This document shows positions 41,227 through 60,745 of a stretch of DNA of 64,000 bases, one piece after another. Location: NCBI RefSeq assembly GCF_900129645.1, contig NZ_FSQZ01000001.1:1-64000 (forward strand), given 5' to 3'. The notes below the pieces were generated by a model. It saw only the letters and a program-made list of their open reading frames with translations, had not been told where the DNA came from and ran no database searches. Positions within the stretch are counted from its first letter, which is position 1. The number at the start of each line of letters is the position of its first letter. This stretch comes from Acetomicrobium flavidum. GTDB taxonomy: Bacteria > Synergistota > Synergistia > Synergistales > Acetomicrobiaceae. The translations under genes were made by a program, and so were the position numbers.

Positions 41227-42423
41227 ATGTATTCAGATGAAGTGATGAAACTTAGCAAGTCCATGTCAGAGGAGCTAAGGACTTTACGAAGGGATTTCCA
41301 TCAATTTCCCGAGCTTAGCTTTAAGGAGTTCGAGACGGCGAGGAAGATCGCCATTTATATGAAGGAATTGGGCTATGAAGTCAAAGAAAACGTGGGCAAA
41401 ACAGGCGTGGTCGCCTTACTGAAAGGGGCAAAAGAAAACCCAACCGTCGCGCTTAGGGCGGACATGGATGCACTGCCTGTAAAGGAGATGACCGGCCTTT
41501 CTTATGCCTCTAAAAACGATGGAGTGATGCACGCTTGCGGCCATGATATACACGTCACTTGCGCCTTAGGAGCTGCAAAAATTTTAGCTTCTCTTAAAGA
41601 TGGACTTCAAGGAAGCGTCAAATTTATCTTTCAGCCGGCAGAGGAGATAAACGCAGGGGCAAAGGCCATGATCGATGATGGCGTGCTCGAAAACCCCAAT
41701 GTTTCCATGATCTTTGGTTTGCACAACAATCCCGAGATACCGGTAGGCAAAGTAGGATTAAAGGAAGGCCCTTTAATGGCAGCTGTGGACTCCACCTTTA
41801 TAACCGTTATAGGGCAGGGAGGACACGCTGCCTATCCCCATAGGGTAATTGATCCTATAGTATGCGCTTCTTCCATAGTCATGAACCTGCAGACTATCGT
41901 AAGCAGAAACGTCGATCCCCAAAAGTCGGCCGTCATTAGCTTTGGAAGCATCAATGGGGGAATGGCCAACAACGTAATCCCCGATGAGGTAAAGCTTGCC
42001 GGCACAGTGCGTACCTTTGACGAGGGCCTTCGCGATTCCATTGAAGGCTGGATGAAAAGAACCGTGGAAAATACAGCTTCAGGCTTAGGGTGTAAGGTCG
42101 AATTTAACTATCGCAGAGATCTTCCTCCCGTCGTAAATCATCCGGAGGCAACGAAGATAGCTTTGTGGGCAGCTCAAAAAGTATTCGGCGAAGACGGCAT
42201 CATTCTGCCGACTCCTTCTATGGGAGGAGAGGATTTCGCATTATATCAAAAAAAGGTCCCCGGGTGTTATTTCTGGCTTGGCGTGGGTAACCCCGATATC
42301 GATGCCGTACATCCATGGCATAGCCCGTACTTTAAGGCCGACGAAGAGGCCTTCCCGCTTGGAGCAGCACTTTTAGCTTTATCTGCTTTAATTGCCTGTG
42401 ACAAATTCATACAGGCAACTTAA
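41227..42423 (+). CDS. M20-family amidohydrolase (N-acyl-amino-acid hydrolase type)
   Basis: 398 residues. Metal ligands and motifs: LRADMDALPV, HACGHDIHVTCALG, FQPAEEINAGA (catalytic Glu pair), GLHNNPEIPVG and the late histidine in GGEDFALYQKKVPG. These are typical of IAA-amino-acid/hippurate hydrolases and aminobenzoyl-glutamate utilisation proteins. AAAAGGAGG precedes it. The two membrane proteins that follow could import its substrate. Confidence 0.92.
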   Translation: MYSDEVMKLSKSMSEELRTLRRDFHQFPELSFKEFETARKIAIYMKELGYEVKENVGKTGVVALLKGAKENPTVALRADMDALPVKEMTGLSYASKNDGVMHACGHDIHVTCALGAAKILASLKDGLQGSVKFIFQPAEEINAGAKAMIDDGVLENPNVSMIFGLHNNPEIPVGKVGLKEGPLMAAVDSTFITVIGQGGHAAYPHRVIDPIVCASSIVMNLQTIVSRNVDPQKSAVISFGSINGGMANNVIPDEVKLAGTVRTFDEGLRDSIEGWMKRTVENTASGLGCKVEFNYRRDLPPVVNHPEATKIALWAAQKVFGEDGIILPTPSMGGEDFALYQKKVPGCYFWLGVGNPDIDAVHPWHSPYFKADEEAFPLGAALLALSALIACDKFIQAT

Positions 42424-42457
42424 GGGCACGATCAATTTAAGACAGGGGGATAGGTGT

Positions 42458-43027
42458 ATGATTGAGGCGATCAAAAATTGGAAGCTCCATATATTGGTTT
42501 TAATTTTTGTGATCGTAGCCGAGTGGATCGGCGCTTTTTCGTTTCCCATAGGCCCGGGCAAAGTGGTCCTGCTGCCAATGCTTTATGCGCTCATCATGGG
42601 AATCTTTTCAGGACCCAAGTTTCTTAAGCTTGCTAATCATAAGGACATGATTGATGCCGGCAGTCTAATTGGGGTTACTTTGATGCTCTTGATGGCAAAG
42701 TACGGAACAACTGTGGGGCCAAACATTCCAATGATATTAAGGACAAGTCCAGCCTTGATATTGCAGGAATTTGGCAATCTAGGCACGGTCATCATTGGTG
42801 TGCCCGTGGCGGTGTACTTGGGACTTAGACGAGAAACCATAGGGGCAGCCCATTCGATCGCCAGAGAGCCTAATGTGGCTTTGATAGGTGACATCTACGG
42901 CTTGGATACTCCCGAAGGTCAAGGAGTCATGGGTGTCTACATCTGCGGCACCGTTTTTGGGACGATTTTTTTGGTCTTATGGCGACGTTTACGGCAGCGT
43001 TGGGAATCTTTCATCCCCTCGCTTTAG
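42458..43027 (+). CDS. DUF3100-like membrane protein, N-terminal part before a frame change
   Basis: From ATG 42458 (GGGGGATAGGTG upstream) the frame encodes a membrane protein whose first 170 residues (EAIKNWKLHILVLIFVIVAEWIG, FPIGPGKVVLLPMLYALIMG, GRRETIGAAHSIAREPNVALI) look like a complete DUF3100-type N-terminus. After GTVFGTIF the frame turns into a basic, non-membrane tail ending at 43027. The natural continuation is in the -1 frame beginning at 42979. A run of seven T (42966-42972) containing T-TTT-TTG lies at the junction. It is either a real slip site, a mutation, or a sequencing error. Confidence 0.75.
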   Translation: MIEAIKNWKLHILVLIFVIVAEWIGAFSFPIGPGKVVLLPMLYALIMGIFSGPKFLKLANHKDMIDAGSLIGVTLMLLMAKYGTTVGPNIPMILRTSPALILQEFGNLGTVIIGVPVAVYLGLRRETIGAAHSIAREPNVALIGDIYGLDTPEGQGVMGVYICGTVFGTIFLVLWRRLRQRWESFIPSL

Positions 43028-43272
43028 CCATGGCCTCCGGAGTGGGAAGTGCCAGCATGATGACTGCCTCCGTTGGTGCTTTGAGCGCTATGTTTCCTGA
43101 AATAGCCGATAAAATTCAGGCCCTGGGAGCGGCAAGCAACATGTTAAGCGGCCTGGACGGGGTTTATATGTCCCTCTGGATGGCCTTGCCTATGACAGAA
43201 TGGCTGTATAGAAAGTTCTATAAAATGAAATATGGCACATATCCAAGTCAATCTGCCGTTAGGGAGGGCTAA
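42979..43272 (+). CDS. DUF3100-like membrane protein, C-terminal part in the -1 frame
   Basis: 97 residues that complete the preceding protein: MATFTAALGIFHPLALAMASGVGSASMM, then two further membrane segments and a basic end. With one extra T, or a -1 slip, the upstream protein reads through into this one as GTIF[F/L]GLMATF, giving a single protein of about 270 residues. It has an ATG but no good ribosome site, since the sequence upstream encodes the same protein. It runs to three bases before the next gene. Confidence 0.72.
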   Translation: MATFTAALGIFHPLALAMASGVGSASMMTASVGALSAMFPEIADKIQALGAASNMLSGLDGVYMSLWMALPMTEWLYRKFYKMKYGTYPSQSAVREG

Positions 43273-43275
43273 TCG

Positions 43276-43722
43276 ATGAAGATCAGGGAAGTTCTTGCTG
43301 TTCTTATAATTATCGGCATCATTACTTTGGTCGGCAACTTCGTTGGAGCAAATATCCCGATGATCGATGCCATCCCTGGCATGATTTTTTTAATCGCCAT
43401 CAGTATTCTTGGGGTAATATTCGCAAAAGTCATCCCGGTCAGGATTCCTGCTGTAGCCTACATCGTTACAATCGGATGCATAGTAACTATTCCCGGATTT
43501 CCTGGTGCAACAATTTTTAATGCCTGGGCGCAAAAAGTAAACTTTTTAGCCCTCACAACGCCAATTCTCGCCTATGCCGGGATCTCAATTGGGAAAGACC
43601 TTGGTGTGCTTAAAAAGACCGGATGGAGGATCTTGATCGTATCCTTTGTGGTATTCATAGGAACATACATAGGCTCTACCATCATTGCGCAAATTGTATT
43701 AAAGCTCATCGGAGAAATTTAA
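43276..43722 (+). CDS. Small integral membrane protein, partner of the DUF3100-like protein
   Basis: 148 residues, about five hydrophobic segments (VLAVLIIIGIITLVGNFVG, AIPGMIFLIAISILGVIFAK, IPAVAYIVTIGCIVTIPGF, ILIVSFVVFIGTYIGSTIIAQIVLK). I do not recognise a named family. GGGAGGG precedes the start, three bases after the DUF3100-like protein. Its position suggests that the two form a membrane complex or transporter working with the upstream M20 amidohydrolase. This is inference from gene order. Confidence 0.75.
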   Translation: MKIREVLAVLIIIGIITLVGNFVGANIPMIDAIPGMIFLIAISILGVIFAKVIPVRIPAVAYIVTIGCIVTIPGFPGATIFNAWAQKVNFLALTTPILAYAGISIGKDLGVLKKTGWRILIVSFVVFIGTYIGSTIIAQIVLKLIGEI

Positions 43723-43948: not shown

Positions 43949-43982
43949 TTAAAATAGTAATAATAAAGTTGTATTTATATAA

Positions 43983-44075
43983 CCTCCGAGTCAATGGTTC
44001 TAAGGGTAATTGCCTATGAACGTTGACCGATAGGGTCTTTTCGGAAACGAAAGGGCCTCCCGTCTGGAAAGGAGG
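43983..44075 (+). ncRNA. Moco-type riboswitch (molybdenum/tungsten cofactor RNA motif)
   Basis: A compact structured leader. The outer stem is CCTCC (43983-43987) with GGAGG (44071-44075). GTCAA pairs with TTGAC, GTTC with GAAC, and the inner segment GGTAATTGCC can fold on itself. Then CTTTTCG-GAAA-CGAAAGG forms a GNRA-capped stem, followed by GCCTCCC. This architecture and the GAAAGGGCCTCC segment agree with my memory of the Moco RNA motif, which senses molybdenum cofactor. The first downstream gene is a molybdenum hydroxylase, as expected. Confidence 0.75.
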
Positions 44076-44089
44076 AAGCGATATTGTTG

Positions 44090-44122
44090 CCCCTCTTCCC
44101 GGAAGGAAGGGGGTTGTTTTTT
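44090..44122 (+). terminator. Intrinsic terminator controlled by the riboswitch
   Basis: CCCC(T)CTTCC (44090-44099) pairs with GGAAGGGGG (44105-44113) around a five-base loop, followed by TTGTTTTTTT (44114-44123). It lies about 320 bases before the structural gene. Its CCTCTTCC arm could compete for the GGAAAGGAGG closing strand of the riboswitch, so control by alternative pairing is plausible. The rest of the leader (44124-44432) is AT-rich. A weak second hairpin, AGTATG (44124-44129) with CATACT (44155-44160), is followed by a T-run. Confidence 0.75.
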
Positions 44123-44438
44123 TAGTATGGGTATCCGTAATATCCTGCGAGAAGCATACTTTTTTATATATCCTTATATCTCACACGCACGCCAGTGCTT
44201 CGATATTTCACTAATTTCAATGGCCACATATTATATTCACAAAAGAGGTGATGGCAAAAATACTTTAATGATTACTAAGTTATATAGGATCGTCAATCGT
44301 TATGAATTCTTCTTTAATTTCATGCGAGTGTAGACACCCCAAATGGTGAGAGAAAACTAGGTGCCAAAAATTACCATATGTTTCTATTTAGATGGGATGA
44401 GATGGCGCCGCGTAATGAAAGAGAAGGAGTGATATGAG

Positions 44439-47171
44439 ATGATCCAAAGGCATTTTTTTGTCAACGGAATAGAACGCAACATTCCTATAGTAGATGGCAA
44501 TGACTCATTGGCAAAGGTTTTGCGCGAACAACTGGGTCTGACGGGCACGAAAGTCGGTTGCGGACAAGGGCAGTGTGGCGCCTGTAATGTTATCTTAAAT
44601 GGCAAACTCGTTCGATCGTGCACATTTAGGATCGACAAGGTTAACGACGGGGACTCCATAACCACCATCGAAGGAATTGGAACACCCCAAAAGATGCATC
44701 CCCTCCAGAAAGCCTTCGTTAAGCACGGAGTAACCCAATGCGGTTTCTGCAATCCTGGTTTCATAATCTCGGCTAAGGTCCTTTTAGACAGCAACCCATC
44801 TCCAACACGCGAAGAAGTTAGGGAGTGGTTCCACAAGAACCGCAATGCATGTCGTTGCACAGGATACATCCCCATAATCAACGCCGTCATGGATGCAGCT
44901 AAAGTCCTTAGGGGAGAGATGGACGAGTCGGAGCTGGAGTTCAAGATGCCCGAAGACGGCAAAATTTGGGGCACAACCTACCCAAGACCCACTGCCGTGG
45001 CCAAAGCCACAGGTACGCTGGATTACGGTGCTGACCTTGGGCTTAAGATGCCAAAGGGCACGCTACAACTGGCGCTTGTACAGGCAACGGTGAGCCATGC
45101 CAATATTAAAAACATTGACACCTCCGAGGCCGAAAAGATGCCCGGCGTCTACAAGGTAGTCACACACAAGGATATTAAGGGCAGAAATCGCATAACAGGG
45201 CTCATCACATTCCCGACCAATAAGGGAGACGGATGGGATCGCCCGATACTTTGCGATGAAAAGGTCTTCCAGTTTGGAGATGCCATAGCGATCGTCTGTG
45301 CTGATACCTACGAAAACGCCTGTGCTGCTGCAGAAAAAGTAAAGGTCGACCTAGAAGTGCTTCCTGCCTACATGAGCGCTCCGGCAGCCATGGCCGAAGA
45401 CGCCCTTGAGATCCACCCAGGCACGCCAAACGTCTACTACGTCCAAAACCTGGAGAAGGGCGAGCCCACGACCCCCATCTTTGAGAAGGCCCCATACGTT
45501 GTGGAAGACGACTTTTACGTGCAAAGGCAACCCCATATGACGATTGAACCAGACGTTGGTTTCGCCTACATTGACGACAACGGCGTTCTAAAGATTCATT
45601 CCAAGACTATCGGCGCTCATCTGCATTTACTGATGATCGCTCCCGGTCTTGGTGTAGAGCCCGATAAAATTGCGCTCGTATCGAACCCCATGGGCGGCAC
45701 CTTTGGATATAAGTTCTGCCCGACCATGGAGGGATTGGTCGGAGCGGCAGCCCTGGCGACGGGCAAGCCCTGTTTCCTCAGGTACAACTACTTCCAGCAC
45801 ATGACCTACACGGGGAAGCGATCTCCCTTTTTTGTGAACATCAAGTTCGCTGCCGACGATGAAGGCAAAATTCTTGCCATGGAAACGGACTACATTGTGG
45901 ATCACGGGCCTTACTCGGAGTTTGGGGATTTGCTCACGCTCAGAGGCGCCCAGTTCATGGGAGCAGGCTACAATATCCCCAACATCAGGGGAAGAGGACA
46001 GACGGTCTGCACCAATCACGTATGGGGTTCTCCCTTCAGAGCTTACGGCTCTCCGCAATCCCTTTACTCTTCCGAGCTCCTCATGGACGAGCTGGCTGAG
46101 AAGATCGGCATGGACCCATGGGAGATACGCTACAAAAATTGCTATCGTCCGGGTTCCACAAATCCGAGCGGGCAGGAACCTGAGGTCTTCAGCTATCCCG
46201 AGATGCTTGAAGCCATCAAGCCAAGGTATGAGGAGGCAAAGGAAAGGGCCAAGAAAGAATCCACCGATAAGATCAAAAAAGGCGTCGGACTTTCAATGGC
46301 CGTTTACGGCTGTGGGATCGACGGTCCAGACAGTTCCGAGGTATGGGCAGTTTTGAATCCCGACGATACCGTCACAGTCGTAGCTGCCTGGGAGGACCAC
46401 GGCCAAGGCGCCGATATGGGCATGGTGGGGACAGCTCACGAGGCGCTTCGTCCCATGGGCATTACGCCTGACAGAATAAGATTTACCTGGCCCGATACGT
46501 CTAAAACCCCCAACTCGGGGCCTTCCGGCGGATCGCGTCAGCAGGTGTTGACCGGCAGCGCAATCAGGATCGCCTGTTCTGAAATGCTCAAATCCCTACG
46601 GAAGCCCGACGGGACGTATATGAACTACGCCGAAGCCGTCAGTGCTGGTAAACCGTTGAAGTACGTTGGTAAATATACCGTTCCAGGCGTTCCCTGCGAC
46701 GAAAAGGGACAGGGAAGGCCCTTCGTCGTCTATATGTATGGAGTCTTTCTTGCCGAGGTTTCGGTTAATACCGAAACAGGCAAGGTTGCCGTGGACAAGA
46801 TGACCTTGATGGCTGATATCGGAAAAGTCAATAACCGCCTGGTGACCGATGGCCAGATTTACGGAGGGATCGCCCAGGGAATCGGGCTTGCCCTATCGGA
46901 GGACTTTGAGGATATTAAAAGGCATTCTTCCCTCATCGGGGGAGGGTTCCCCTACGCTAAGGATCTCCCAGATGCCATAGAGATAGTCTACTTCGAAAAT
47001 TACCCCCGGGAGCTTGGTCCCTTTGGTGCTGCTGGAGTAGGAGAGCTGCCGCTTTCCAGCCCACATGCAGCCATTGGAAACGCTATTTACCATGCCTGTG
47101 GTGTTAGGGTTCATCGTCTGCCAGCTACACCCGAAAAGGTCCTCGCCGGTCTCAGGGGAGAACGCGTCTAG
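44439..47171 (+). CDS. Single-chain molybdenum hydroxylase, aldehyde oxidoreductase (Mop) type
   Basis: 910 residues, nearly the length of the Desulfovibrio gigas enzyme. N-terminal [2Fe-2S] domain with GCGQGQCGACNV and CTF; a second [2Fe-2S] domain with QCGFCNPGFI and NACRCTGYIPI; then the molybdopterin part with RPTAVAKATGTLDYGADL, a PEDVGFAYID-like block, GGTFGYKF, ASPFRAYG-like GSPFRAYGSPQ and AAGVGELPLSSPH. It has no FAD domain, so electrons pass through the two clusters. Oxidises aldehydes to acids in this family. It is the first gene of the riboswitch-controlled cluster. Confidence 0.93.
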   Translation: MIQRHFFVNGIERNIPIVDGNDSLAKVLREQLGLTGTKVGCGQGQCGACNVILNGKLVRSCTFRIDKVNDGDSITTIEGIGTPQKMHPLQKAFVKHGVTQCGFCNPGFIISAKVLLDSNPSPTREEVREWFHKNRNACRCTGYIPIINAVMDAAKVLRGEMDESELEFKMPEDGKIWGTTYPRPTAVAKATGTLDYGADLGLKMPKGTLQLALVQATVSHANIKNIDTSEAEKMPGVYKVVTHKDIKGRNRITGLITFPTNKGDGWDRPILCDEKVFQFGDAIAIVCADTYENACAAAEKVKVDLEVLPAYMSAPAAMAEDALEIHPGTPNVYYVQNLEKGEPTTPIFEKAPYVVEDDFYVQRQPHMTIEPDVGFAYIDDNGVLKIHSKTIGAHLHLLMIAPGLGVEPDKIALVSNPMGGTFGYKFCPTMEGLVGAAALATGKPCFLRYNYFQHMTYTGKRSPFFVNIKFAADDEGKILAMETDYIVDHGPYSEFGDLLTLRGAQFMGAGYNIPNIRGRGQTVCTNHVWGSPFRAYGSPQSLYSSELLMDELAEKIGMDPWEIRYKNCYRPGSTNPSGQEPEVFSYPEMLEAIKPRYEEAKERAKKESTDKIKKGVGLSMAVYGCGIDGPDSSEVWAVLNPDDTVTVVAAWEDHGQGADMGMVGTAHEALRPMGITPDRIRFTWPDTSKTPNSGPSGGSRQQVLTGSAIRIACSEMLKSLRKPDGTYMNYAEAVSAGKPLKYVGKYTVPGVPCDEKGQGRPFVVYMYGVFLAEVSVNTETGKVAVDKMTLMADIGKVNNRLVTDGQIYGGIAQGIGLALSEDFEDIKRHSSLIGGGFPYAKDLPDAIEIVYFENYPRELGPFGAAGVGELPLSSPHAAIGNAIYHACGVRVHRLPATPEKVLAGLRGERV

Positions 47172-47181
47172 AAATGCCCTA

Positions 47182-47223
47182 TAACGCCTGCCCTTGACTG
47201 CTTAAATTCGGGGGCGGGCGTTA
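47182..47223 (+). terminator. Hairpin between the aldehyde oxidoreductase and the next gene
   Basis: TAACGCCTGCCC (47182-47193) pairs with GGGCGGGCGTTA (47212-47223), 12 pairs with one G-U. The tail has no T-run, so partial termination or mRNA processing may separate expression of the enzyme from the accessory genes. Confidence 0.5.
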
Positions 47224-47353
47224 TTAAAAAGATAACCGACATGGATCTTTATACTTTTCTTTTGATCGAATCCCCTGAAAGCGTCAATTTCCTGGCAAAC
47301 CTGGTTAATCTGGTTATGTGATCTCATTGTGAGATATTCGGGAGGAAGTATTA

Positions 47354-49564
47354 ATGGAGCGCTATAAACTCGATGACTTTGAGCAACGCTGCATTCAAGA
47401 TGAGCTTCCCTACTGTCAGGCGGCATGTCCTCTAAAAGTCGACGCAAAGGCCTTTTGTGCAGCCATGGCACAGAAACGCTTTGATGAAGCAAGAAAAATT
47501 TTATCAAAGACAATGCCACTGCCGGACATCATCGGCCGAATCTGCGATCACCCCTGTCAGGATGCCTGTATCTTGTCCCAAAAGGGCGGCGCCATTTTAA
47601 TAGGAAAGCTTGAAAGGGCTTGCCTAGAACAAACTAAAGATACGGGGCTGCCCCTGCGCCTTCCCCCAAAGGGGTTGTCCGTGACTATTTACGGCGGAGG
47701 CCTTTCTTCGTTGACTTGTGCCTTTGAACTGGCAAAAAAGGGCTACCAAGTATGTATGGTCTTTAATGATGAGACCCCCGGTGGCAGGCTTTTGACACTT
47801 ACACAAGAAGTTTTGCCCCAGGAAGTGCTTGTCACTGCCTGGCAGAACCTGCAACGATTGGGCGTAACAAGGTCATCCGGAAAAGATCCCATCCGCGACT
47901 GCTTGAAAGAAGGTAATGTCGCCTACGTGGGTATCGATGACCCCGAATGGACTCATCTGATCAATGGAAATGATATCGATCCAATCACTTACGAGACTTT
48001 CACAAAGGGGCTTTTCGCCGGAGGCTATCTTCGAAACAACAAGCCTTCACCCTCATGGGAGTCTGCCGATGGCAAGCGTGCCGCCAACTCCATCGACCGT
48101 TATTTTCAGGGTGCGTCACTGACGTCGGGAAGAGAGAAAGAATTCTCGCTTGATACGAAGCTTTACACTTCCATTGAAGGCGTTCCAACCCTCTCGCCCA
48201 AGGATGACCCGATAGAGGAGGCCAAACGCTGCATTCAATGCGAATGTCGATGCTGCGTGCGCGAATGTGTCTTTCTTGAAAAGTACAAGGGATATCCAAA
48301 GATTTACGTTCGACAGATCTACAACAATTTCGCCATAGTCAGAGGCTCTCACAGCGCCAATAAAATGATAAATTCCTGTTCGCTTTGCGGGCTTTGCGAG
48401 GTCCTTTGTCCAAACGATTTTTCAATGGCTGAACTGTGCAGATTTGCACGGGAAGAGATGGTTGAGCGAAACATCATGCCGCCATCGGTACATGAGTTTG
48501 CCCTCCTTGACATGGAACATGCCAACTCTCCAAGATCGTCCGGATTTAGAAGCGGAGCAAAGACTACTGAGGCCATCTTCTTTCCGGGTTGTCAATTGAG
48601 CGGTGCCATGCCCGACCAGACCGAAAGGGTCGCAAACTTCCTTGGCAAGATGTTTGATGGCAAGATGGGCATAATGCTTGGATGCTGCGGTGCACCTGCC
48701 TGGTGGGCTGGCCGGCAAGACAAGCTCAATGAGGTCATCAAAAACATCGAGAAAACCGTAGAATCCGCAGGAAACCCCACCCTGATCCTGGCTTGTTCTT
48801 CTTGCAACGAGGTGTTTAAAAACTTCATGCCTAATTTGTCAAGGGTCTCTTTATGGCAAGTGTTGCTTGAAAAGGGGTTACCTGAAACAAGGCCCGCTAC
48901 AGAAACGCTTGCTCTGCATGACCCTTGCACGACCCGCCACGAACCGGAGTGGAGACAGTCGGTGCGAAAGATACTTCAAATCCTTGGGCAACCTTACGAA
49001 GAGCTTGTCTTTGGCGGTGAAGCCACGCGCTGCTGCGGTTACGGCGGCTTACAATCCATGGCCGACCCCGACCTTGCCCGCGAGGGCGTCTCGCGAAGGC
49101 TTCAAGAAAGCAAAAACGATTTTCTGACCTATTGTGCCATGTGCCGCGAAAGCCTTTCCGGGTCAGAAAAAACGGTCTTACATCTGCTGGACATCCTATT
49201 TCCTCCTCCTGCAGAAAAGAAACGTGCAGGCTTTTCCAAACGTCAGCAAAATAGGGAATTGCTTCGCGTAAAGCTTCTTGGTCCTTGCGACCTTGCTCCC
49301 AATCCATGGGATGATTTACTTATATCGATACCCGACGCGGTGCGCGAAAAACTTGAAGACCGCCACATCTTAGACAGCGATATCAGACAAACTCTGTGGG
49401 AAGCTTCTTCTACGGGAAGGTATCTCATCTCTCCCGATGGCACCAGGCTTGCTTCTTCAAGGATAGGAAATGTCACCTTTTGGGTGGAATATCGCGAGGA
49501 TTATCATTCTTTTACGATCGTCAACGCCTGGAGCCACAGGATGATCATGGAGTTGATGTCATGA
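47354..49564 (+). CDS. Fused FAD/NAD-binding, 4Fe-4S and CCG-domain redox protein of the Mop cluster
   Basis: 736 residues. The N-terminus is a GltD-like Fe-S helix domain (QDELPYCQAACPLKVDAKAF, ICDHPCQDAC), then a Rossmann FAD segment (VTIYGGGLSSLTCAFELAKKGYQV). A second Fe-S region follows (CIQCECRCCVRECVFLE, CSLCGLCEVLCPNDF), then two CCG domains of HdrB/GlcF type (FFPGCQLSG, GCCGAPAWWAG, LALHDPCTTRHE, RCCGYGGLQ). The layout matches the 'pyridine nucleotide-disulfide oxidoreductase/dicluster-binding' protein beside Mop in Desulfovibrio (DVU_1558 in my memory). Likely an electron acceptor or cofactor maturase for the hydroxylase. Confidence 0.82.
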   Translation: MERYKLDDFEQRCIQDELPYCQAACPLKVDAKAFCAAMAQKRFDEARKILSKTMPLPDIIGRICDHPCQDACILSQKGGAILIGKLERACLEQTKDTGLPLRLPPKGLSVTIYGGGLSSLTCAFELAKKGYQVCMVFNDETPGGRLLTLTQEVLPQEVLVTAWQNLQRLGVTRSSGKDPIRDCLKEGNVAYVGIDDPEWTHLINGNDIDPITYETFTKGLFAGGYLRNNKPSPSWESADGKRAANSIDRYFQGASLTSGREKEFSLDTKLYTSIEGVPTLSPKDDPIEEAKRCIQCECRCCVRECVFLEKYKGYPKIYVRQIYNNFAIVRGSHSANKMINSCSLCGLCEVLCPNDFSMAELCRFAREEMVERNIMPPSVHEFALLDMEHANSPRSSGFRSGAKTTEAIFFPGCQLSGAMPDQTERVANFLGKMFDGKMGIMLGCCGAPAWWAGRQDKLNEVIKNIEKTVESAGNPTLILACSSCNEVFKNFMPNLSRVSLWQVLLEKGLPETRPATETLALHDPCTTRHEPEWRQSVRKILQILGQPYEELVFGGEATRCCGYGGLQSMADPDLAREGVSRRLQESKNDFLTYCAMCRESLSGSEKTVLHLLDILFPPPAEKKRAGFSKRQQNRELLRVKLLGPCDLAPNPWDDLLISIPDAVREKLEDRHILDSDIRQTLWEASSTGRYLISPDGTRLASSRIGNVTFWVEYREDYHSFTIVNAWSHRMIMELMS

Positions 49565-49776
49565 GCAAGGAAAGTGATCTCGGTTTTCACGAACAGACTG
49601 TCTGGAGGTGCAGCTGTGGCGGAGAACTTACGCCGCACAAGGTCGCGGCGCTTTATCTTGGCAATCGCTTCGAGATAGAGCTTCCCGCCTGCTCCCGATG
49701 CGGCTTTATTCTTGTGCCTGAGTCTTTAGCGGTGGGCAAGATGCTCGAGGTCGAGAAGATATTGGAGGACAAATGA
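49561..49776 (+). CDS. Small zinc-ribbon/rubredoxin-like redox protein (DVU_1557-like)
   Basis: 71 residues from ATG 49561, which overlaps the stop of the previous gene (ATGA). Two cysteine pairs, C17-x-C19 (RCSCGG) and C44-x2-C47 (CSRCG), form a zinc ribbon or a rubredoxin-like iron site. The remainder is a short KVAALYLGNRFEIELP strand region and a C-terminal helix. It also overlaps the following gene by 4 bases, so it is translationally coupled on both sides. It resembles the small redox protein that sits between the dicluster protein and methyltransferase in Desulfovibrio. Function unknown. Confidence 0.78.
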   Translation: MSKESDLGFHEQTVWRCSCGGELTPHKVAALYLGNRFEIELPACSRCGFILVPESLAVGKMLEVEKILEDK

Positions 49777-50477
49777 TGTCCTTGCCCTATGAACATCCAA
49801 GGTGGCACAGGGTTATGGGCGAAGCGCTTCACCCGGGAGGGGAAGCGCTATCAAGAAGGCTTATACACCTGTGCAACTTTCCCCCAAAGGCCAAGGTGCT
49901 TGATGCAGGCTGTGGTGCAGGCGCAACAGTAGGACTTTTGATTGAAGAGGGTTTTGATGCCGTCGGATTTGACAAGTCTTACGACTTGCTTTCGAAGGCA
50001 AAGCAAAAGGGTCCGGCAATACATGGAGATTTGCGTAGTATGCCCTTCGAAGACGGCAGTTTTGACGGCGCGATTTGTGAGTGCGTCCTCTCGCAGCAAA
50101 AGGAGCTTTCACCAGCCTTGTCAGAGCTTGCAAGAGTCTTAAAAAACGGAGGAATTTTGGGGGTAACCGACATCTTCTCCCTCAATCGCAGTTACGACAG
50201 TCAAGGCTGGGACGGTTCATGTGCAAGCGGGGCCAGATCCGCCCTTGAACTGCACGAAGCATTCACGATCCATGGATTTGGGGCGTTTTTCTTTGAAGCC
50301 TATCCTAGGTTGCTTCGGGAATGTACTGCCCAACTAGTGTGGGCAGGTATCATCGAAGCACCCATAAAGACATGTTGTAGCCTGAGTTACGGCCTTTGGT
50401 TGTGTAGAAAGTTGGGCGATGAGGGTTCATTAAAAGAGCGATACGAAATTGAAGGCGCCGAAAAAGCGGCAGGTTAA
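49773..50477 (+). CDS. SAM-dependent methyltransferase of the Mop cluster (DVU_1556-like)
   Basis: 234 residues, class I Rossmann fold: VLDAGCGAGATVGLLIEEGFDAVGFDKS (SAM loop), GDLRSMPFEDGSFDGAICECVL (motif II), LARVLKNGGILGVTDIFS (motif III). The C-terminal part is unusual and contains two pairs of cysteines (APIKTCCSLSYGLWLC). ATG 49773 overlaps the previous stop. The substrate is unknown; conserved linkage with the Mo hydroxylase and a radical SAM protein points to cofactor or product modification, which is inference. Confidence 0.82.
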   Translation: MMSLPYEHPRWHRVMGEALHPGGEALSRRLIHLCNFPPKAKVLDAGCGAGATVGLLIEEGFDAVGFDKSYDLLSKAKQKGPAIHGDLRSMPFEDGSFDGAICECVLSQQKELSPALSELARVLKNGGILGVTDIFSLNRSYDSQGWDGSCASGARSALELHEAFTIHGFGAFFFEAYPRLLRECTAQLVWAGIIEAPIKTCCSLSYGLWLCRKLGDEGSLKERYEIEGAEKAAG

Positions 50478-50503
50478 CCAGGAAGATTGAAGGAGAGGTT
50501 GAG

Positions 50504-50962
50504 ATGAAAGACCTAAATACTGCAGTCATGCAATGGGGGCAGGAAGGTTTTTGCTGTTCGCAGATCATGATACTGACAGGATTGGCGCTTACTGGAAAGG
50601 AAAATAAGGACCTGACGGCGGCCATGAATGGCCTTTGTAAAGGCACTTTCTCACCTGTATGTACGTGCGGGGCATTGACCGGTGCCTGTTGCCTTTTGGG
50701 GTTTTATGCCGGCAAAGGAGCGCCGCTGGAAGATAAAGATCCTAGACTGCCCGAAATGATCGGGCGCCTTCACGAATGGTTTCAAGGCAAGTGGGGATCA
50801 GGCGGGCGCGTCAACTGTGGGGATATCCTGGGCTTTGAACCAATTGCTGATCCGAAGCAATGTTTTCAAAAATGTTTTCCTATGATAATGGAAACGTTGG
50901 AAAAGACCTTAGAGCTTCTCGAAACGCACGGCTTTGATATACGGGAAGGGCGGCCCCTTTAA
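50504..50962 (+). CDS. C-GCAxxG-C-C family protein (DVU_1555-like)
   Basis: 152 residues. It has the family's cysteine pattern: C17-C18 near the N-terminus (GFCCSQI), the C53-x-C55-GALTG-A-C62-C63 core, and two more in NCGDILGF and CFQKCFP. Such proteins are thought to bind a metal or redox cofactor; none is well characterised. GGAGAGG precedes the ATG. Its stop overlaps the start of the radical SAM gene by one base, so the two are coupled. Confidence 0.85.
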   Translation: MKDLNTAVMQWGQEGFCCSQIMILTGLALTGKENKDLTAAMNGLCKGTFSPVCTCGALTGACCLLGFYAGKGAPLEDKDPRLPEMIGRLHEWFQGKWGSGGRVNCGDILGFEPIADPKQCFQKCFPMIMETLEKTLELLETHGFDIREGRPL

Positions 50963-52311
50963 TGACGATTTTACGACACACCAACAGTGTATGTCCCATC
51001 TGCCTAAAGCAAGTACCAGCATTCCTGGAAGAGGAAGAAAATGACGTTTTCATGCGGAAACATTGTCCCGATCATGGAGAGTTTTCCTGCCTGGTATGGG
51101 AAGGGAAGCCAAGCCTTGACGCTTGGACTTCGGGCCGTTTTACCCTCGCAAGACCTGAAGATAGACCACCGAAATCTTGCCCCGAAGGGTGCGGGCTATG
51201 CGCGGATCACCTGCAAAAAAGCTGCACAGTGGTCGTCGAGGTTACCGAAAGGTGTCAGCTCAAGTGTCCTGTATGTTTTGCAAGCGCGGGAGACGACTTT
51301 GAGCCCGATTTTTATGTTTTGGAGAAGTTGTTACATGACGTACATCGTAAGGCACCAGGTGCCATCCTGCAATTTTCAGGGGGAGAACCCACGCTTAGAG
51401 ACGATTTGACAGATCTTATTCGATTGGCTTCAAGCCTCAAATTTCCAGGAATTCAGTTAAATACCAATGGCCTTAAGCTGGCTCAAGAATCCAGGTACGG
51501 GCAAAGATTAAAGGAAGCAGGACTGAGCTGGGTATTTCTGCAATTCGACGGCCTTCGCGAAGCGACCTACCAGGCCCTACGGGGAAAGCCGCTTCTGACC
51601 GACAAAATACGGGCAATCGATGCCTGCAAAGAGGCCGGCCTTGGGGTAGTCCTTGTTCCCACGCTCGTAAAGGGGGTCAACGATGACGAGATGGGAGATA
51701 TCGTCCATTTCGGACTTTCTCGCTTTCCAGTCGTTAGAGGAGTCCATTTTCAGCCCATCAGCTATTTCGGCCGTTTCCCCGAACCGCCACGCAACGATAA
51801 ACGTCTGACGCTTCCAAGGATCATGAGAGATCTGGCAGAACAGGCTGACGAGATGATCGATTTATCCCATTTTCGCCCGTCTCGGTGTGAGCATGAACGA
51901 TGTTCCTTTCGGGCGATTTACCTTGTCGATTCCCCTGACAAAATCATTCCCCTGACAAGTGGGCCATGTTGCTGTAACGGTCGGTCCTCCGATGAAGGAT
52001 TTCAAAGCTCCGTCGAAAGCATCGGCCGCCGATGGGGGGCCGACATCACCCCAAAAAACTGCAAAAAGCAGGAGAAAGCTCCTCAGGAAATGGATGCCCA
52101 GGCCGGAGAGGCCTTTGATAGGTTTATCCGCATTTACGAAAGGGGAAGCTTCAGCATAAGCGCAATGGCCTTTCAAGACGGTGAAAACCTTGACCTCGAA
52201 CGGCTGCGCTTCTGCTGCATCCACGTGGCAGCACCCGATGGAAGATTTGTACCTTTTTGTGCCTGGAACCTTACCGCAAGGAACGGCCGGGCCTTGCATC
52301 GTAAACGATGA
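50962..52311 (+). CDS. Radical SAM protein of the Mop cluster (TrsS-like, DVU_1554-like)
   Basis: 449 residues. An N-terminal cysteine-rich region (CPIC at 11-14, C35, C43, CPEGCGLC at 73-80) probably carries auxiliary clusters. The radical SAM motif is C98-x3-C102-x2-C105 (CQLKCPVC), followed by LQFSGGEPTLRDDL and LVPTLVKGVNDDE. Further cysteines occur in CEHERCSF and CCCNG. This multi-domain layout resembles the MoaA-like radical SAM protein that NCBI names TrsS, some versions of which carry selenocysteine; here all positions are Cys. No substrate has been established. It may modify or build a cofactor for the hydroxylase. Confidence 0.8.
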   Translation: MTILRHTNSVCPICLKQVPAFLEEEENDVFMRKHCPDHGEFSCLVWEGKPSLDAWTSGRFTLARPEDRPPKSCPEGCGLCADHLQKSCTVVVEVTERCQLKCPVCFASAGDDFEPDFYVLEKLLHDVHRKAPGAILQFSGGEPTLRDDLTDLIRLASSLKFPGIQLNTNGLKLAQESRYGQRLKEAGLSWVFLQFDGLREATYQALRGKPLLTDKIRAIDACKEAGLGVVLVPTLVKGVNDDEMGDIVHFGLSRFPVVRGVHFQPISYFGRFPEPPRNDKRLTLPRIMRDLAEQADEMIDLSHFRPSRCEHERCSFRAIYLVDSPDKIIPLTSGPCCCNGRSSDEGFQSSVESIGRRWGADITPKNCKKQEKAPQEMDAQAGEAFDRFIRIYERGSFSISAMAFQDGENLDLERLRFCCIHVAAPDGRFVPFCAWNLTARNGRALHRKR

Positions 52312-53588
52312 AAATTCCAATCACCCCCTTAGACCCATGGATCGCAGGCCGCCTCATCAATGAGTTTCCCCGATATGCGGCCGCAGAAAAACAGGCCAGG
52401 ATCGAAGATCGCAGCGAGATAGAAAGGGCCCAAAAACACCTTTTAAGCCGTACAATTGAAGATGCTTCACTTTATTCTCCCTTTTACCGTGACCGCCTTG
52501 GCCCCGTAAGGGGCGTGCCCTTCAATGAACTTCCCTTTACTTTCCCGTCGGATCTCGCTGAATCGGGATTGCGTTTCCTAACCGTCTCTCAGTCGGAGAT
52601 ACGGCGCATCGTTACTTTGAGCACATCGGGTACGTCAGCTCCTCCCAAGAGAGTCTTTTTCACCGAAGAAGATCTCAAAGCAACTGAGGATTTTTTCATG
52701 TGCGGGATGACGACGTTTACGCCCCCCGAAAGCATAGTTTTAGTCTTCATGGAGGGGCCTTCACCCGACAGCATAGGACAAATCCTTAAACGTGCATTGC
52801 AGCGCCTTGGGTGCGAAACGCTTGTCTTGGGGCTTATCCGTGATCCAAGGGATGCAATTCGTGCCATAGATGATTACCATCCCAATGTCGTAGTCGGCCT
52901 TTCCGCCCAGATGGCAAGGATCGCAGGAAAGACTGAGCATAAGCCCCACTATGTTTTGCTTAGCGCCGACATGGCGCCTGTTTCAATAAGACAGCGGATA
53001 GAAAAATTATGGGGATGTACGACTTTCAACCATTATGGCCTCACCGAAACGGGTTGGGGCTGCGCCGTTGAATGTCGTGCAAGGCAGGGCTGTCACGTCA
53101 GAGAGCTTGACCTCTACGTTGAGATCGTAGACGAAAACGGGCAAGTCCTTCCTGACGGCAAGTGGGGAGAGATGGTCATCACCACACTTAGTCGAAGGTC
53201 TTTTCCGTTGATCAGATATAGAACGGGCGACGAAGGTCGCATCCTTCAGGACGTTTGTCCTTGCGGTTCGCCCTTAAAACGCATAGAAGTCCTCGGGCGC
53301 CTACCCAGAAAAGGCGCAGGTGGCGTCCCACTTCGCCTTTATGACGTGGAAGACGCCCTTTGGAGATTGCCCTGGATTGAAGACTTTAAAGTATCCTTGC
53401 AGAATACGGGAGACATCCCCGAAAAGTTATCTTTGACCATAGCCGTGGCGGAAGGCAAACAGGAGTATGTCGACAAAGCAGTTGAGGTTTTAAGGCAAGT
53501 CCCCGGCGTTCCCCGCAATATCATCGTAAAAAAAGTAAGCCCTTCCTCGATTCGACATCAAAGCCCAAAGATGGACTGGGAAGACTGA
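52308..53588 (+). CDS. AMP-dependent CoA ligase of the Mop cluster (DVU_1553-like)
   Basis: 426 residues of the phenylacetate-CoA ligase (PaaK) type. Motifs include LSTSGTSAPPKRVFFTEEDL (ATP loop), the NHYGLTETGWGCAVEC core and IRYRTGDEGRI. It lacks a canonical signal and is shorter at the C-terminus than typical acyl-CoA ligases. It overlaps the radical SAM gene by four bases. It could activate the acid formed by the aldehyde oxidoreductase to an acyl-CoA, or activate a carboxylate as part of cofactor chemistry. This gene closes the cluster. Confidence 0.82.
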   Translation: MKIPITPLDPWIAGRLINEFPRYAAAEKQARIEDRSEIERAQKHLLSRTIEDASLYSPFYRDRLGPVRGVPFNELPFTFPSDLAESGLRFLTVSQSEIRRIVTLSTSGTSAPPKRVFFTEEDLKATEDFFMCGMTTFTPPESIVLVFMEGPSPDSIGQILKRALQRLGCETLVLGLIRDPRDAIRAIDDYHPNVVVGLSAQMARIAGKTEHKPHYVLLSADMAPVSIRQRIEKLWGCTTFNHYGLTETGWGCAVECRARQGCHVRELDLYVEIVDENGQVLPDGKWGEMVITTLSRRSFPLIRYRTGDEGRILQDVCPCGSPLKRIEVLGRLPRKGAGGVPLRLYDVEDALWRLPWIEDFKVSLQNTGDIPEKLSLTIAVAEGKQEYVDKAVEVLRQVPGVPRNIIVKKVSPSSIRHQSPKMDWED

Positions 53589-53613: not shown

Positions 53614-54774
53614 ATGTTAAGCACATTCGCGAAGGCAGTGACGCAAATGAAGGAGATACCTTATGGGGATTTCTCAAAAAATGACTTGGACGACAAGGTT
53701 GCAGCCATAAACCGCAAGCTCTTTTACAGGATATTTGACCCGATCGCCTTGTATCAGGTCTCATACGACGAAGAGGGCAATACTGCAAATGTGATCTTCA
53801 TGGACATCAACCCAGCCTACGAACGCGTCATGGGAGTAAGACGCAAGGACATTATAGGAAAGACCTTTGCCGAAGTTTGGCCCTCTGCGGAAAGGCAGTG
53901 GCACCAGCTCGTCATCGACGTAGCTCGAAGCGGACGCTCCAAGCACTACGAAGGAGAAAGCCATGACACGGGAAAATACCTCTACGCGCTCGGATTCAGC
54001 CCGGTCAAAGGCCAAGTAGCCGTTATTTTTTTAGACATGACTGAGTGGAAAAGGTCGCAGGAAGCCCTGCAGAAAAGCGAGTCTCAGCTTATCCGTTACC
54101 GCGAAAAGCTGAGAGATTTGGTCGCAAAGCTTTCCCTTGCCGAGGAGGAGACACGTCGAGACATCGCAATAAAGCTTCATGATAAGGTGGGTTATTCCCT
54201 CGCCATGATAATGCATCGCCTTCAGCACCTCTACAGCGAAACTGACAAAGAAGGCAGTCGTCAAAAGATAAATGAGATCATGGAGATGCTGAGCGACGTC
54301 ATTCAGGACACTAGGAATATGACCTTTGAAATAAGCTCTCCTTTGCTTTACGAAGTTGGGCTGCCTGCCGCCTTGGAATCCCTTGCCGAACAAATCCTAA
54401 AACCTCACGATATCGCTGTGGATTTCAAGGCAATCGGTTCGCCCGACAACAAGCTTGGCAGGGACATCAACGTGCTTTTATATCAGATGACCAGGGAACT
54501 TCTCATAAACGTCGTAAAGCATGCCGAGGCGACCCGCGTATCCATCCGCGTGCATTTCGGCAAAAATAAGGTCCGCATAGTGGTAGAAGACGACGGAAGG
54601 GGTTTTGACGACCAAAAGAAACGAGATAGCAAATGCAGGGGATTTGGGCTTTTCAGCATAAAGGAAAGGCTTTATTCCATCGGTGGTTCGATCCAAATAA
54701 TATCAGAACCCGGCAGAGGCACGATCGTGTCCCTGGTCGCGCCGACGGGAAAGGACAACGGGGATGCAGGATAG
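53614..54774 (+). CDS. PAS-domain sensor histidine kinase, NarX/LiaS (HisKA_3) type
   Basis: About 386 residues with no membrane segment. An N-terminal PAS domain (YRIFDPIALYQVSYDEEGN ... IFMDINPAYERVMGVRRKDIIGKTFAEVWPS) is followed by a HisKA_3 helix pair with the phospho-histidine in RRDIAIKLHDKVGYSLAMIMHRLQ. The ATPase domain has ELLINVVKHAEATRV, VEDDGRGFD and GFGLFSIKERLYSIGG. ATG 53614 lacks a ribosome site; ATG 53647 is an alternative. It overlaps its response-regulator gene by 11 bases. As a cytosolic sensor it may respond to a metabolite of the neighbouring pathways. Confidence 0.88.
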   Translation: MLSTFAKAVTQMKEIPYGDFSKNDLDDKVAAINRKLFYRIFDPIALYQVSYDEEGNTANVIFMDINPAYERVMGVRRKDIIGKTFAEVWPSAERQWHQLVIDVARSGRSKHYEGESHDTGKYLYALGFSPVKGQVAVIFLDMTEWKRSQEALQKSESQLIRYREKLRDLVAKLSLAEEETRRDIAIKLHDKVGYSLAMIMHRLQHLYSETDKEGSRQKINEIMEMLSDVIQDTRNMTFEISSPLLYEVGLPAALESLAEQILKPHDIAVDFKAIGSPDNKLGRDINVLLYQMTRELLINVVKHAEATRVSIRVHFGKNKVRIVVEDDGRGFDDQKKRDSKCRGFGLFSIKERLYSIGGSIQIISEPGRGTIVSLVAPTGKDNGDAG

Positions 54775-55426
54775 TGTTAAAGTTCTTTTAGCAGATGATC
54801 ATAAGATCTTTTTGGACGGCCTGGAAGAGCTTTTGAGCAAAGAGGGAGGGTTTCTCGTCGTAGGCAAGGCCTCAAGCGGGCGAGAGACCTTGGACCTGCT
54901 TTCGACATGCAAGCCGGATATAGTCGTCATGGACATATCAATGCCCGATGTAAATGGGATAGAAGCCACCAAAATCATCGTCAAAAACTACCCCGACGTA
55001 AAGGTTTTAGCCCTTTCCATGCACTTGGACAAGGGCATGATATCGGGAGTCCTGCAAGCCGGCGCTCGCGGATATATTTTAAAGGAATGTAGCGTGGATG
55101 AATTCGTAAGAGGCATAAAAGCCGTGACGGACGGACAGGTTTACCTTACCCCAAAGGTAGCCGCGATCGTGCTCGATGATTACCTAGCTTTAAAGGAAGG
55201 CAACGCCCAAGCAGCAGAGCACAAGCTAACGCCCAGGGAAATGCAAGTTTTAAAGCTCCTGGTCAAGGGAGAACACACCAAGTCCATTGCCTCCAAACTA
55301 TCCATAAGCAAAAGTACGGTGGATACCCACAGGAGAAACATCATGGAAAAGCTGGATTGCAACAACATGGCAGATCTCACTCGCTACGTCCTACGGGAAG
55401 GGCTAATCGACCTAGACGACGACTAG
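54764..55426 (+). CDS. NarL/LuxR-family response regulator
   Basis: 220 residues. The receiver domain has [25 protein letters not shown] with the phospho-Asp, ALSMH and the conserved lysine in [11 protein letters not shown]. The C-terminal HTH domain is [43 protein letters not shown]. It pairs with the PAS kinase just upstream. Its targets may be the Mop cluster upstream or the reductase operon that starts 150 bases downstream, which the sequence alone does not settle. Confidence 0.93.
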
Positions 55427-57444: not shown

Positions 57445-58770
57445 ATGTTAAAGGCCGTTCATTACATAAACCAGTTCTTCGGACAGGTGGGAGGAGAAGA
57501 AAGCGCCGATTTTGAGCCTGTATTGCAGGAAGGTCCGGTCGGGCCAGGGCTTCTTTTAAATGAAGCCATGAAGGAAGTAAAGATCACCCATACCGTGATA
57601 TGCGGGGACAACTTCATGGCATCTCATCCTGAGGAAGCAGTCGCTCGGATTTTAAAGATCCTTGAGGGATTGAAGTTCGACATCTTCCTGGCAGGTCCTG
57701 CCTTCAATGCAGGTCGCTACGGCGTAGCCTGCGGAACGATCTGCAAGGCCGTAAAGGAAAAGTTCGGCGTCCCAGTCATCACCTCCATGAACGAGGAAAA
57801 CCCTGCGGTGGAGATGTTTAAATCCAACATGTACATATTTAAAGGCGGACGTCGTGCAACCTATATGAAGCAGGACGTCGAAAAGATGGCCGCCTTTGCC
57901 GATAAAATAGCGCGTGGAGATAAACTGCTTCCTGCCTCAATGGAAGGCTACTTTCCAAGAGGCATACGTCATGAGGTCTTCCTTGAGGACATTGGCCTGG
58001 AGCCTAAATGTGCAGCCGACAGGGCATTTGATATGCTCCTTAAAAAGCTCAAGGGCGAGCCCTACGAGACCGAACTTCCCATACCAAAACAGGAAAGGGT
58101 GCCTATAGCACCAGCAGTAAAGGATCTTCGGAAGGTAAAGATCGCACTTGTTACTTCCGGTGGCATCGTCCCTAAGGATAACCCCGACAGGATACAGTCA
58201 TGTTCGGCGACGAAATGGGGCGCCTACGACATTTCCAAGCTCGATCGCCTGATGGCTCCGGATTTTAAGACGATCCATGCCGGTTACGACCCCGAGCAGG
58301 CCAACAAAAATCCAAATGTCGTCCTTCCCCTTGACGCCATACGACAGTATCAAAAGGAAGGGCGCATCGGCGAGGTGGACGATCACTACTACGTCACCGT
58401 TGGCACCGGCACCACGCAGGCTGAGGCCGCCAGGATGGGCCGTGAGATAGCCCAAAGGCTCAAGGAAAGAAACGTAGGAGCAGTAGTTTTAACGGCGACC
58501 TGAGGAACGTGTACTCGTTGCGGGTCAACGATCGCAAAGGAAATCGAACGCACGGGCATTCCCGTGGTAGTGATATGCAATCTCGTTAACATTGCAAAGA
58601 CAGTAGGCGTAAACCGCATCGTCCCGGGCGTTGCAGTTCCTTACCCCCTGGGCAATCCGAACCTCTCTCCGGAAGACGAATGGAAATTGCGCTATCATCG
58701 CGTTGGCGTGGCGCTTGATGCTCTGGAGACGGACATCAAGGAACAGACTGTATTTACCGTGAAGATATAG
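57445..58770 (+). CDS. Glycine/sarcosine/betaine reductase selenoprotein B (GrdB/F/H family)
   Basis: 441 residues if the in-frame TGA at 58501-58503 (residue 353) is read as selenocysteine, giving ATUGTCTRCG, the U-x-x-C-x-x-C redox motif of the family. The first part (AVHYINQFFGQVGGEESADFEPVL) is typical. The C-terminal part after the UGA carries KEIERTGIPVVVICN and ends GVAVPYPLGNP, matching the family. It binds the substrate amine through the selenol. By context it is probably the betaine form, GrdH. Confidence 0.92.
58501..58530 (+). promoter_or_regulatory. Selenocysteine codon and SECIS hairpin of the GrdB/F/H gene
   Basis: TGA at 58501-58503 followed by CGTTG (58516-58520) pairing with CAACG (58526-58530) around CGGGT, a short apical stem at the right distance from the codon. 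Confidence 0.7.
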
Positions 58771-60449: not shown

Positions 60450-60595
60450 CACTTTAAACGAAGAGAAAGGCGTTTTCTTCGTGTATGGAAGGGGAAAGCG
60501 CCTATCTCTTTCATTATGGCCTTTGAGGATAAGGAGGTGTGACAACTGATTTAGCTGCAACGTCAAGTCTTTAGATTTAATATGGTCTGTGGTTA

Positions 60596-60745
60596 AGCGC
60601 CTGGACTGGTCGCAAGCCAGTTGACGAGGTCGGGGGAGGATCGAAGCTATCGGCGGATGCCCCCGGGCCCCGGAAGATGGGCCAATCAGTCGTCCTACAA
60701 AGCCGCGGAGCGATCTGCGGGACAAAGGGGACGACGATCTTCCGT
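60596..60745 (+). ncRNA. glmS ribozyme
   Basis: The sequence contains the hallmark blocks of the glucosamine-6-phosphate-activated ribozyme in order: A-GCGCC at 60596-60601 (expected cleavage after A60596), CTGG...CCAGTTGACGAGG (60601-60629), GGGGGAGGATCGA, ATCGGCGGATGCCCCC (60649-60664), and a long closing P3-type stem in which GGAAGAT (60672-60678) pairs with ATCTTCC (60737-60743) and GTCGTCC (60689-60695) with GGACGAC (60729-60735). It lies 30 bases ahead of glmS, so cleavage by the end product lowers glmS expression. Confidence 0.93.

Follow-up and report, generated by a model that had tools for sequence, protein, structure and literature searches.

The aldehyde oxidoreductase (AOR) of Desulfovibrio gigas, known as MOP or DgAOR, was the first member of the xanthine oxidase family to be solved structurally, and has served as a model enzyme for about 30 years. 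Here we describe a cluster of seven genes in Acetomicrobium flavidum (Synergistota; genome of 2.02 Mb), within the first 64,000 nucleotides of contig NZ_FSQZ01000001.1 of assembly GCF_900129645.1 (hereafter the window), and find it to be the full operon of a D. gigas-type molybdenum aldehyde oxidoreductase. The D. gigas enzyme carries an ordinary pyranopterin cytosine dinucleotide cofactor, and is active without a sulfido ligand, which is unusual in the family (PMC3877041, PMC10223205). It also lacks flavin adenine dinucleotide (FAD), and flavodoxin has stood in as the 'missing link' in models of its flavin partner (PMC10223205).

The seven genes (44439-53588) are referred to below as AOR, DIC, Z1557, MT, CGCA, TrsS and COAL (the ligase). 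In the open reading frame listing combined with NCBIfam profiles all seven lie on the forward strand, where the first-pass annotation had placed them, and each protein exceeds the curated cut-off of its family:

44439..47171, + strand: AOR, single-chain molybdenum hydroxylase of the D. gigas MOP family (NF045668, 1633.5 bits; cut-off 1100)
47354..49564, + strand: DIC, FAD/dicluster protein (NF045663, 905.7 bits; cut-off 530)
49561..49776, + strand: Z1557, small Cys-rich zinc-ribbon-like protein of the DVU_1557 family, PF24292/DUF7479 (NF045645, 89.9 bits; cut-off 60)
49773..50477, + strand: MT, class I S-adenosylmethionine (SAM)-dependent methyltransferase of the DVU_1556 family (NF045667, 189.9 bits; cut-off 155)
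50504..50962, + strand: CGCA, C-GCAxxG-C-C protein of the DVU_1555 family (NF045669, 147.3 bits; cut-off 103)
50962..52311, + strand: TrsS, radical SAM protein, homologue of tetraether lipid synthase (NF045646, 583.1 bits; cut-off 490)
52308..53588, + strand: COAL, PaaK-like acyl-CoA (coenzyme A) ligase, AMP (adenosine monophosphate)-forming, of the DVU_1553 family (NF045666, 380.6 bits; cut-off 300)

The start of Z1557 was re-set to an ATG at 49561. A gap of 182 bp separates AOR from DIC, and the genes from DIC to COAL are tightly packed, with four overlaps (DIC/Z1557, 4 bp; Z1557/MT, 4 bp; CGCA/TrsS, 1 bp; TrsS/COAL, 4 bp) and a single gap of 26 bp between MT and CGCA, as expected from the earlier description of the last six as mostly overlapping by 1-4 bases. 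The D. vulgaris order given at the same time, DVU_1559 down to DVU_1553, agrees on names alone, for the four families that carry a DVU number in their NCBI name.

The nearest solved structures to the window AOR are the aldehyde oxidoreductases of D. gigas (1SIJ/1VLB) and D. desulfuricans (1DGJ). A search of 348 Desulfovibrionales genomes with the D. gigas sequence showed that one of them, G166, carries MOP itself, 906 of 906 residues being identical to PDB 1SIJ, followed by DIC, Z1557, MT, CGCA, TrsS and COAL in the order of the window. The crystallised enzyme is therefore the first gene of this cluster. The window AOR is ~69% identical to MOP and alike in domain plan and active-site residues: Pfam assigns two [2Fe-2S] and two molybdenum-binding domains to a single chain in which an FAD domain is absent, and the catalytic Glu869 is kept in every AOR aligned. 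Against the Se_dep_XDH model (TIGR03311) the window AOR scores 454.5 bits, under the cut-off of 830. The cluster had been put forward as an undescribed system; its hydroxylase, unrecognised at that stage, is the well-known D. gigas enzyme, and it is the operon itself to which the description applies. Nor is the cluster wholly unknown, as NCBI names exist for all seven families and TrsS is already published, being credited to Haft and Tolstoy 2025 (PMC13188914). A literature search for a functional account of DVU1553-1558 returned none beyond one incidental mention, and a D. vulgaris transposon paper does not discuss DVU1553-1559. In the accessible portions of the D. gigas genome paper and of a historical review of the enzyme, an operon of this kind is unmentioned, and the word 'operon' is absent from the review altogether. 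As far as we have checked, the new elements are the connection with D. gigas MOP, the linkage figures, the separation from generic maturation, the candidacy of DIC and the type of riboswitch.

The evidence supports the view that the six genes behind AOR form a set that specifically accompanies this hydroxylase. Co-occurrence was sampled in 219 Desulfovibrionales genomes, 136 with TrsS above cut-off and 73 without any TrsS match; AOR is present in 134 of the former and 6 of the latter (Fisher p = 7e-45, odds ratio ~750). Among 61 Synergistota genomes, all 12 with TrsS have AOR, and 18 more carry an AOR without TrsS, which in those inspected is a standalone paralogue (class B, below). The two TrsS-positive genomes without AOR were rejected as true exceptions because both are contig-end cases: in G219 the contig begins just ahead of DIC, and in G261 about 1.1 kb of contig is left between a tandem TrsS pair and the end towards which AOR would be expected. 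Among the TrsS-negative genomes with AOR, G150, G152 and G278 hold DIC or the ligase on broken contigs, G154 shows the start of DIC at its contig end, and the AOR of G274 likewise borders the end of its contig. Matches above cut-off for DIC and COAL are also nearly confined to cluster genomes. The Synergistota exceptions for DIC are G002 (80% complete; DIC and MT share a contig, TrsS not found) and G003, which lacks TrsS and carries a distant DIC paralogue of 870 residues (~544 bits; G003:C4:87704-89530), also seen in G005 of the same genus (G005:C1:462846-464672). The accessory genes are thus not common without a molybdenum hydroxylase, and the first-pass annotation's view of them as travelling with it is borne out.

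Gene order points the same way. The order AOR-DIC-Z1557-MT-CGCA-TrsS-COAL occurs in 24 loci (a count that includes a few duplicate views of one genome) from Synergistota, Desulfovibrionales and other deltaproteobacteria, and is thus preserved across two phyla, with DIC immediately after AOR wherever one locus has both. In three termite-gut Desulfovibrio (G063, G064, G071) MT and COAL are off the run and kept as a neighbouring pair elsewhere, in G061 the locus is reduced to AOR-DIC-TrsS-COAL, and in G055 it is split, one contig holding AOR-DIC-Z1557-CGCA-COAL and a second one TrsS beside a divergent AOR. Genes beyond the cluster are mostly unconserved outside Desulfovibrio. Mirror-tree correlations are high for all pairs, and so carry little information.

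The composition of DIC bears directly on the missing flavin. The first third of the protein matches the Fe-S/FAD module found in NfnB, GltD and dihydropyrimidine dehydrogenase, and is followed by a ferredoxin-type dicluster and two CCG domains resembling those of EtfD/HdrB. Across 29 sequences there is no variation in the dicluster cysteines or in those of the CCG domains, the latter forming two complete motifs (Cys413, 444, 445, 481, 484 and Cys525, 560, 561, 594, 597). The AlphaFold model (pLDDT, its predicted confidence score, 90) contains a single Rossmann domain, with an invariant Gly114 in the dinucleotide-binding region; a nicotinamide adenine dinucleotide (phosphate), or NAD(P), domain is absent from the model: at its place, strands 189-193 and 220-223 are separated by ~27 residues. 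Since MOP has no FAD domain, a flavin partner has been sought in the literature and DIC follows AOR wherever one locus has both, DIC is a strong candidate for that partner, and an obvious one on genetic grounds.

TrsS aligns over its full length with tetraether lipid synthase (Tes, or GDGT-MAS; MJ0619, PDB 7TOL), whose metal sites, including the labile Met439, were used as the reference (PMC9433317). The rubredoxin-type Cys11/14/35-His38 is kept with the same spacing as in Tes, as are Cys73/77/80-His83 and the invariant radical SAM Cys98/102/105 (CX3CX2C); a C-terminal cluster would be bound by Met402, the equivalent of Tes Met439, and the C-terminal cysteines, ligands that were placed by alignment alone. 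In contrast, Tes Tyr459, strictly conserved in the archaeal enzymes, corresponds to Val422, and TrsS has an extra Cys or selenocysteine at position 309 (Ser in Tes, by a weak alignment). The retained metal sites, the changed Tyr459 and the added Cys309 together indicate that TrsS should catalyse related radical chemistry on a different substrate. TrsS as Tes itself was rejected, given the missing Tyr459 and a score of 345.2 bits against the Tes model, under the cut-off of 450. Residue 309 of the window TrsS is Cys, and an in-frame UGA replaces this codon in just three relatives, G017, G025 and G048 (L098/L102, L064-L066); the NCBI name of NF045646, '(seleno)protein', allows for Cys members, and the window TrsS is not a selenoprotein. 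In the tandem pair of G261 (L124:9666-12238) one copy lacks Cys73, Cys80 and His83, ligands of the N-terminal [4Fe-4S] cluster, and the other lacks Cys309 and His311, a pattern as if functions were split between the copies. CGCA has four invariant cysteines (18, 55, 105, 124) and a confident all-helical model (pLDDT 92.6), for which a fold search against the PDB returned no match. COAL scores 112 bits of the 700 required and 89 of the 646 required against the PaaK equivalogs NF041878 and TIGR02155, respectively; by sequence, it is related to phenylacetate-CoA ligase and is not PaaK.

On this basis we propose that AOR delivers electrons to DIC as its partner, with TrsS, MT and the ligase as an attached synthetic branch, a reading to which we assign a probability of roughly 0.45. 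AOR would convert an aldehyde in the cytoplasm to the acid; as the enzyme has no flavin domain, electrons would then move from its two [2Fe-2S] clusters onto DIC. DIC would provide the putative flavin, from which electrons would run via [4Fe-4S] clusters to the two HdrB/EtfD-type CCG domains, and these could in turn reduce an acceptor of disulfide or quinone-like type, for which the four-Cys CGCA is the nearest candidate. The synthetic branch, with MT and the ligase perhaps acting as one sub-unit, would tailor a small molecule that the redox module either uses or produces. We infer the direction of electron flow, the role of CGCA as acceptor and the small molecule alike. A bolder version, which we regard as improbable, has TrsS, MT and the ligase build a new small redox cofactor or carrier, for example a thiol or a lipid-like compound made by Tes-type radical chemistry, to which the CCG domains of DIC would pass the electrons obtained from aldehyde oxidation. 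Were it true, MOP would serve as the dehydrogenase part of an aldehyde:disulfide oxidoreductase that has a dedicated cofactor.

Comparison of AOR classes was used to weigh the readings. Clustered (class A) and standalone (class B) AORs are ~52% identical. At the positions taken to line the substrate pocket in the D. gigas structure, class A enzymes have the common set Phe425, Phe494, Leu497, Arg501 and Leu626, and class B enzymes mostly Val, Ser, Asp, Lys and Asp. The two classes are separated by 33 fixed differences, all in the molybdenum domains. A third class (class C; L096, L103, L107), ~43% identical to class A, stands beside TrsS; in L096 and L103 its pocket is different, and L096 holds the whole set. 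In G050 (L107) the divergent AOR and a class A AOR are arranged back to back. The host genome also has a class B AOR with a polar pocket (G000:C1:144204-146969; L137:10198-12978), flanked by LysX/LysW-type genes on one side and by the lysine-pathway genes DapA/DapB/DapD on the other.

Three observations weigh against DIC as the dedicated partner. First, the Fe-S domains, the expected docking site of a dedicated acceptor, hold none of the 33 fixed differences, which favours effects on the substrate or the molybdenum site instead. Second, flavodoxin takes electrons from DgAOR in vitro (PMC10223205), so that DIC need not be the acceptor. Third, G077 has a clustered-type AOR without DIC, TrsS or the ligase above cut-off, the sole genuine-looking case of the six AOR-positive genomes without TrsS. 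As far as sequence comparison goes, classes A, B and C appear to cut against both a dedicated acceptor and a pure pathway. Because these tests conflict, our confidence is tempered and three readings stay live, with electron transfer to DIC placed first.

The best-surviving alternative is enzyme-specific maturation, in which TrsS, CGCA, Z1557, DIC and MT would act in addition to XdhC and MocA, to insert or shield some labile feature at the molybdenum site or at an Fe-S cluster of this enzyme. This is to be distinguished from generic molybdenum cofactor (Moco) maturation by the six genes, which was rejected. In Desulfovibrio clusters a MoCF-domain gene lies upstream, and downstream, at D. gigas and other loci, comes an XdhC-family factor (NF045664), then in some a MocA-like nucleoside triphosphate (NTP) transferase with an HD domain (DVU_1551) and/or a CobC-like phosphatase. 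MocA-like, XdhC-like and MoCF genes also stand near class B AORs of Synergistota, with none of the six; as maturation genes accompany those AORs as well, the six would act beyond the usual maturation. The first-pass suggestion of cofactor maturation thus fails in its generic sense, given these separate genes beside the paralogue and the ordinary cofactor of DgAOR, and survives as an enzyme-specific role. Such a role, which we consider possible though rather unlikely, would concern a feature restricted to this AOR subgroup; its loss on purification could explain why an oxo replaces the sulfido ligand in DgAOR, which lacks that ligand despite the XdhC in its operon (PMC3877041). It is consistent with the confinement of the fixed differences to the molybdenum domains, including a glycine-rich loop at 694-697, with a split genome in which TrsS adjoins a hydroxylase and the other accessory genes lie elsewhere (L103, L136), and with the Cys- and selenocysteine-containing accessory proteins, which would fit the handling of chalcogens. 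However, DgAOR has equal kinetics as isolated and from dissolved crystals, in both cases sulfido-free, and no modification of it has been reported (PMC3877041). Moreover, the CoA ligase has no obvious role in maturation, and clustered-type AORs are found apart from the set in G077 (L119) and in a second copy in G396 (L122).

A short catabolic pathway, the other suggestion of the first-pass annotation, is less probable again: the ligase would convert the acid made by AOR to its acyl-CoA, MT and TrsS would act before or after on the same unusual carbon skeleton, and the whole would be substrate-specific. The hydrophobic pocket common to clustered AORs fits this proposal, as does a PaaK-like ligase that is kept in the genome even when relocated. 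On the other hand, two genomes (L096, L103) pair TrsS, and in one case the whole set, with an AOR of different pocket, and the aldehyde range of DgAOR is broad (PMC3877041). Finally, mere hitch-hiking in an operon without shared function, by joint horizontal transfer of neighbours, could account for the patchy presence within the genus (3 of 6 genomes), and is very improbable in view of the order held across two phyla, the odds ratio of ~750, the retention of MT and the ligase after leaving the locus, and the occurrence of an intact six-gene set without AOR only at assembly edges (G219, G261).

Control of the operon may involve a second metal. Ahead of AOR lie two RNA elements:

43972..44090, + strand: aptamer of the Moco/tungsten cofactor (Tuco) class (RF01055, 77.4 bits; gathering threshold 36), stem P3 absent
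44092..44123, + strand: intrinsic terminator, CCCCTCTTCCCGGAAGGAAGGGGG then a T run

The aptamer, ~350 nt ahead of the AOR start, matches RF01055 with the P3 columns deleted in the alignment. P3-less Moco RNAs correlate with use of the tungsten cofactor (Regulski et al. 2008, PMC2408646), so the absence of this stem puts the aptamer in the proposed tungsten-cofactor class rather than with Moco; the 'Moco-type riboswitch' annotated earlier stands as a family match and not as to its ligand type. In an alternative pairing, an antiterminator, the 5′ arm of the terminator can join the 3′ side of aptamer stem P1. Since P1 and the terminator compete with this antiterminator, ligand binding should halt transcription. 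P3-less aptamers also precede the clustered AOR in L095, L097 and L101 (Synergistota) and the class B AOR of the same genome (L137), and a terminator-like hairpin follows in 5 of 5 loci, with a weaker U run in L101. Searches of two Desulfovibrio loci (L118, L126), that of D. gigas among them, found no such RNA. With four full-length tungsten-type aldehyde ferredoxin oxidoreductase (AFOR) genes in the host genome, the arrangement suggests that the tungsten cofactor, when abundant, switches off the molybdenum enzymes and this operon, a predicted riboswitch choosing between tungsten and molybdenum aldehyde oxidoreductases.

Around the cluster, a PAS histidine kinase and a LuxR-type response regulator (53614-55426) begin 25 bp past COAL; the pair also adjoins the cluster in A. 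hydrogeniformans (L011:12620-14438), and is seen in none of the other loci viewed. Upstream (41227-43722) are genes for a CpsA-type amidohydrolase and DUF3100 membrane proteins, in the same position in L011 and L106. Further downstream, the window holds a SECIS_4 element (58504-58541) and a glmS ribozyme (60585-60745).

The placement of MOP at the head of a conserved seven-gene operon supplies, for an enzyme whose flavin partner has so far been sought by docking flavodoxin, a concrete candidate partner in DIC and five further proteins. Among these, TrsS is a bacterial enzyme that combines the metal sites of Tes with an altered active site, and likely performs a new radical reaction. DIC matches the Fe-S plus FAD module of NfnABC/StnABC and of NfnB/GltD at its N-terminus, and shares two complete CCG motifs with the EtfD/HdrB proteins at its C-terminus; it differs in lacking the NAD(P) domain, in fusing the two halves in one chain and in possessing a C-terminal domain of its own. 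The window aptamer shares its RF01055 match and the lack of P3 with the P3-lacking Moco RNAs. A similar exception, a P3-less RNA before a presumed molybdenum enzyme, is on record in Syntrophomonas wolfei (PMC2408646), whereas here the RNA is conserved before both molybdenum AOR paralogues, in a genome with four AFOR genes. Unlike the Desulfovibrio loci tested, the window genome has this riboswitch, and its one XdhC gene is unlinked to the cluster. Pao and Xdh operons, in turn, have in common with the Desulfovibrio copies of the cluster the XdhC and MocA-like genes that follow, and differ in that the six genes are extra here, standalone Synergistota paralogues occurring near XdhC/MocA-type genes without them.

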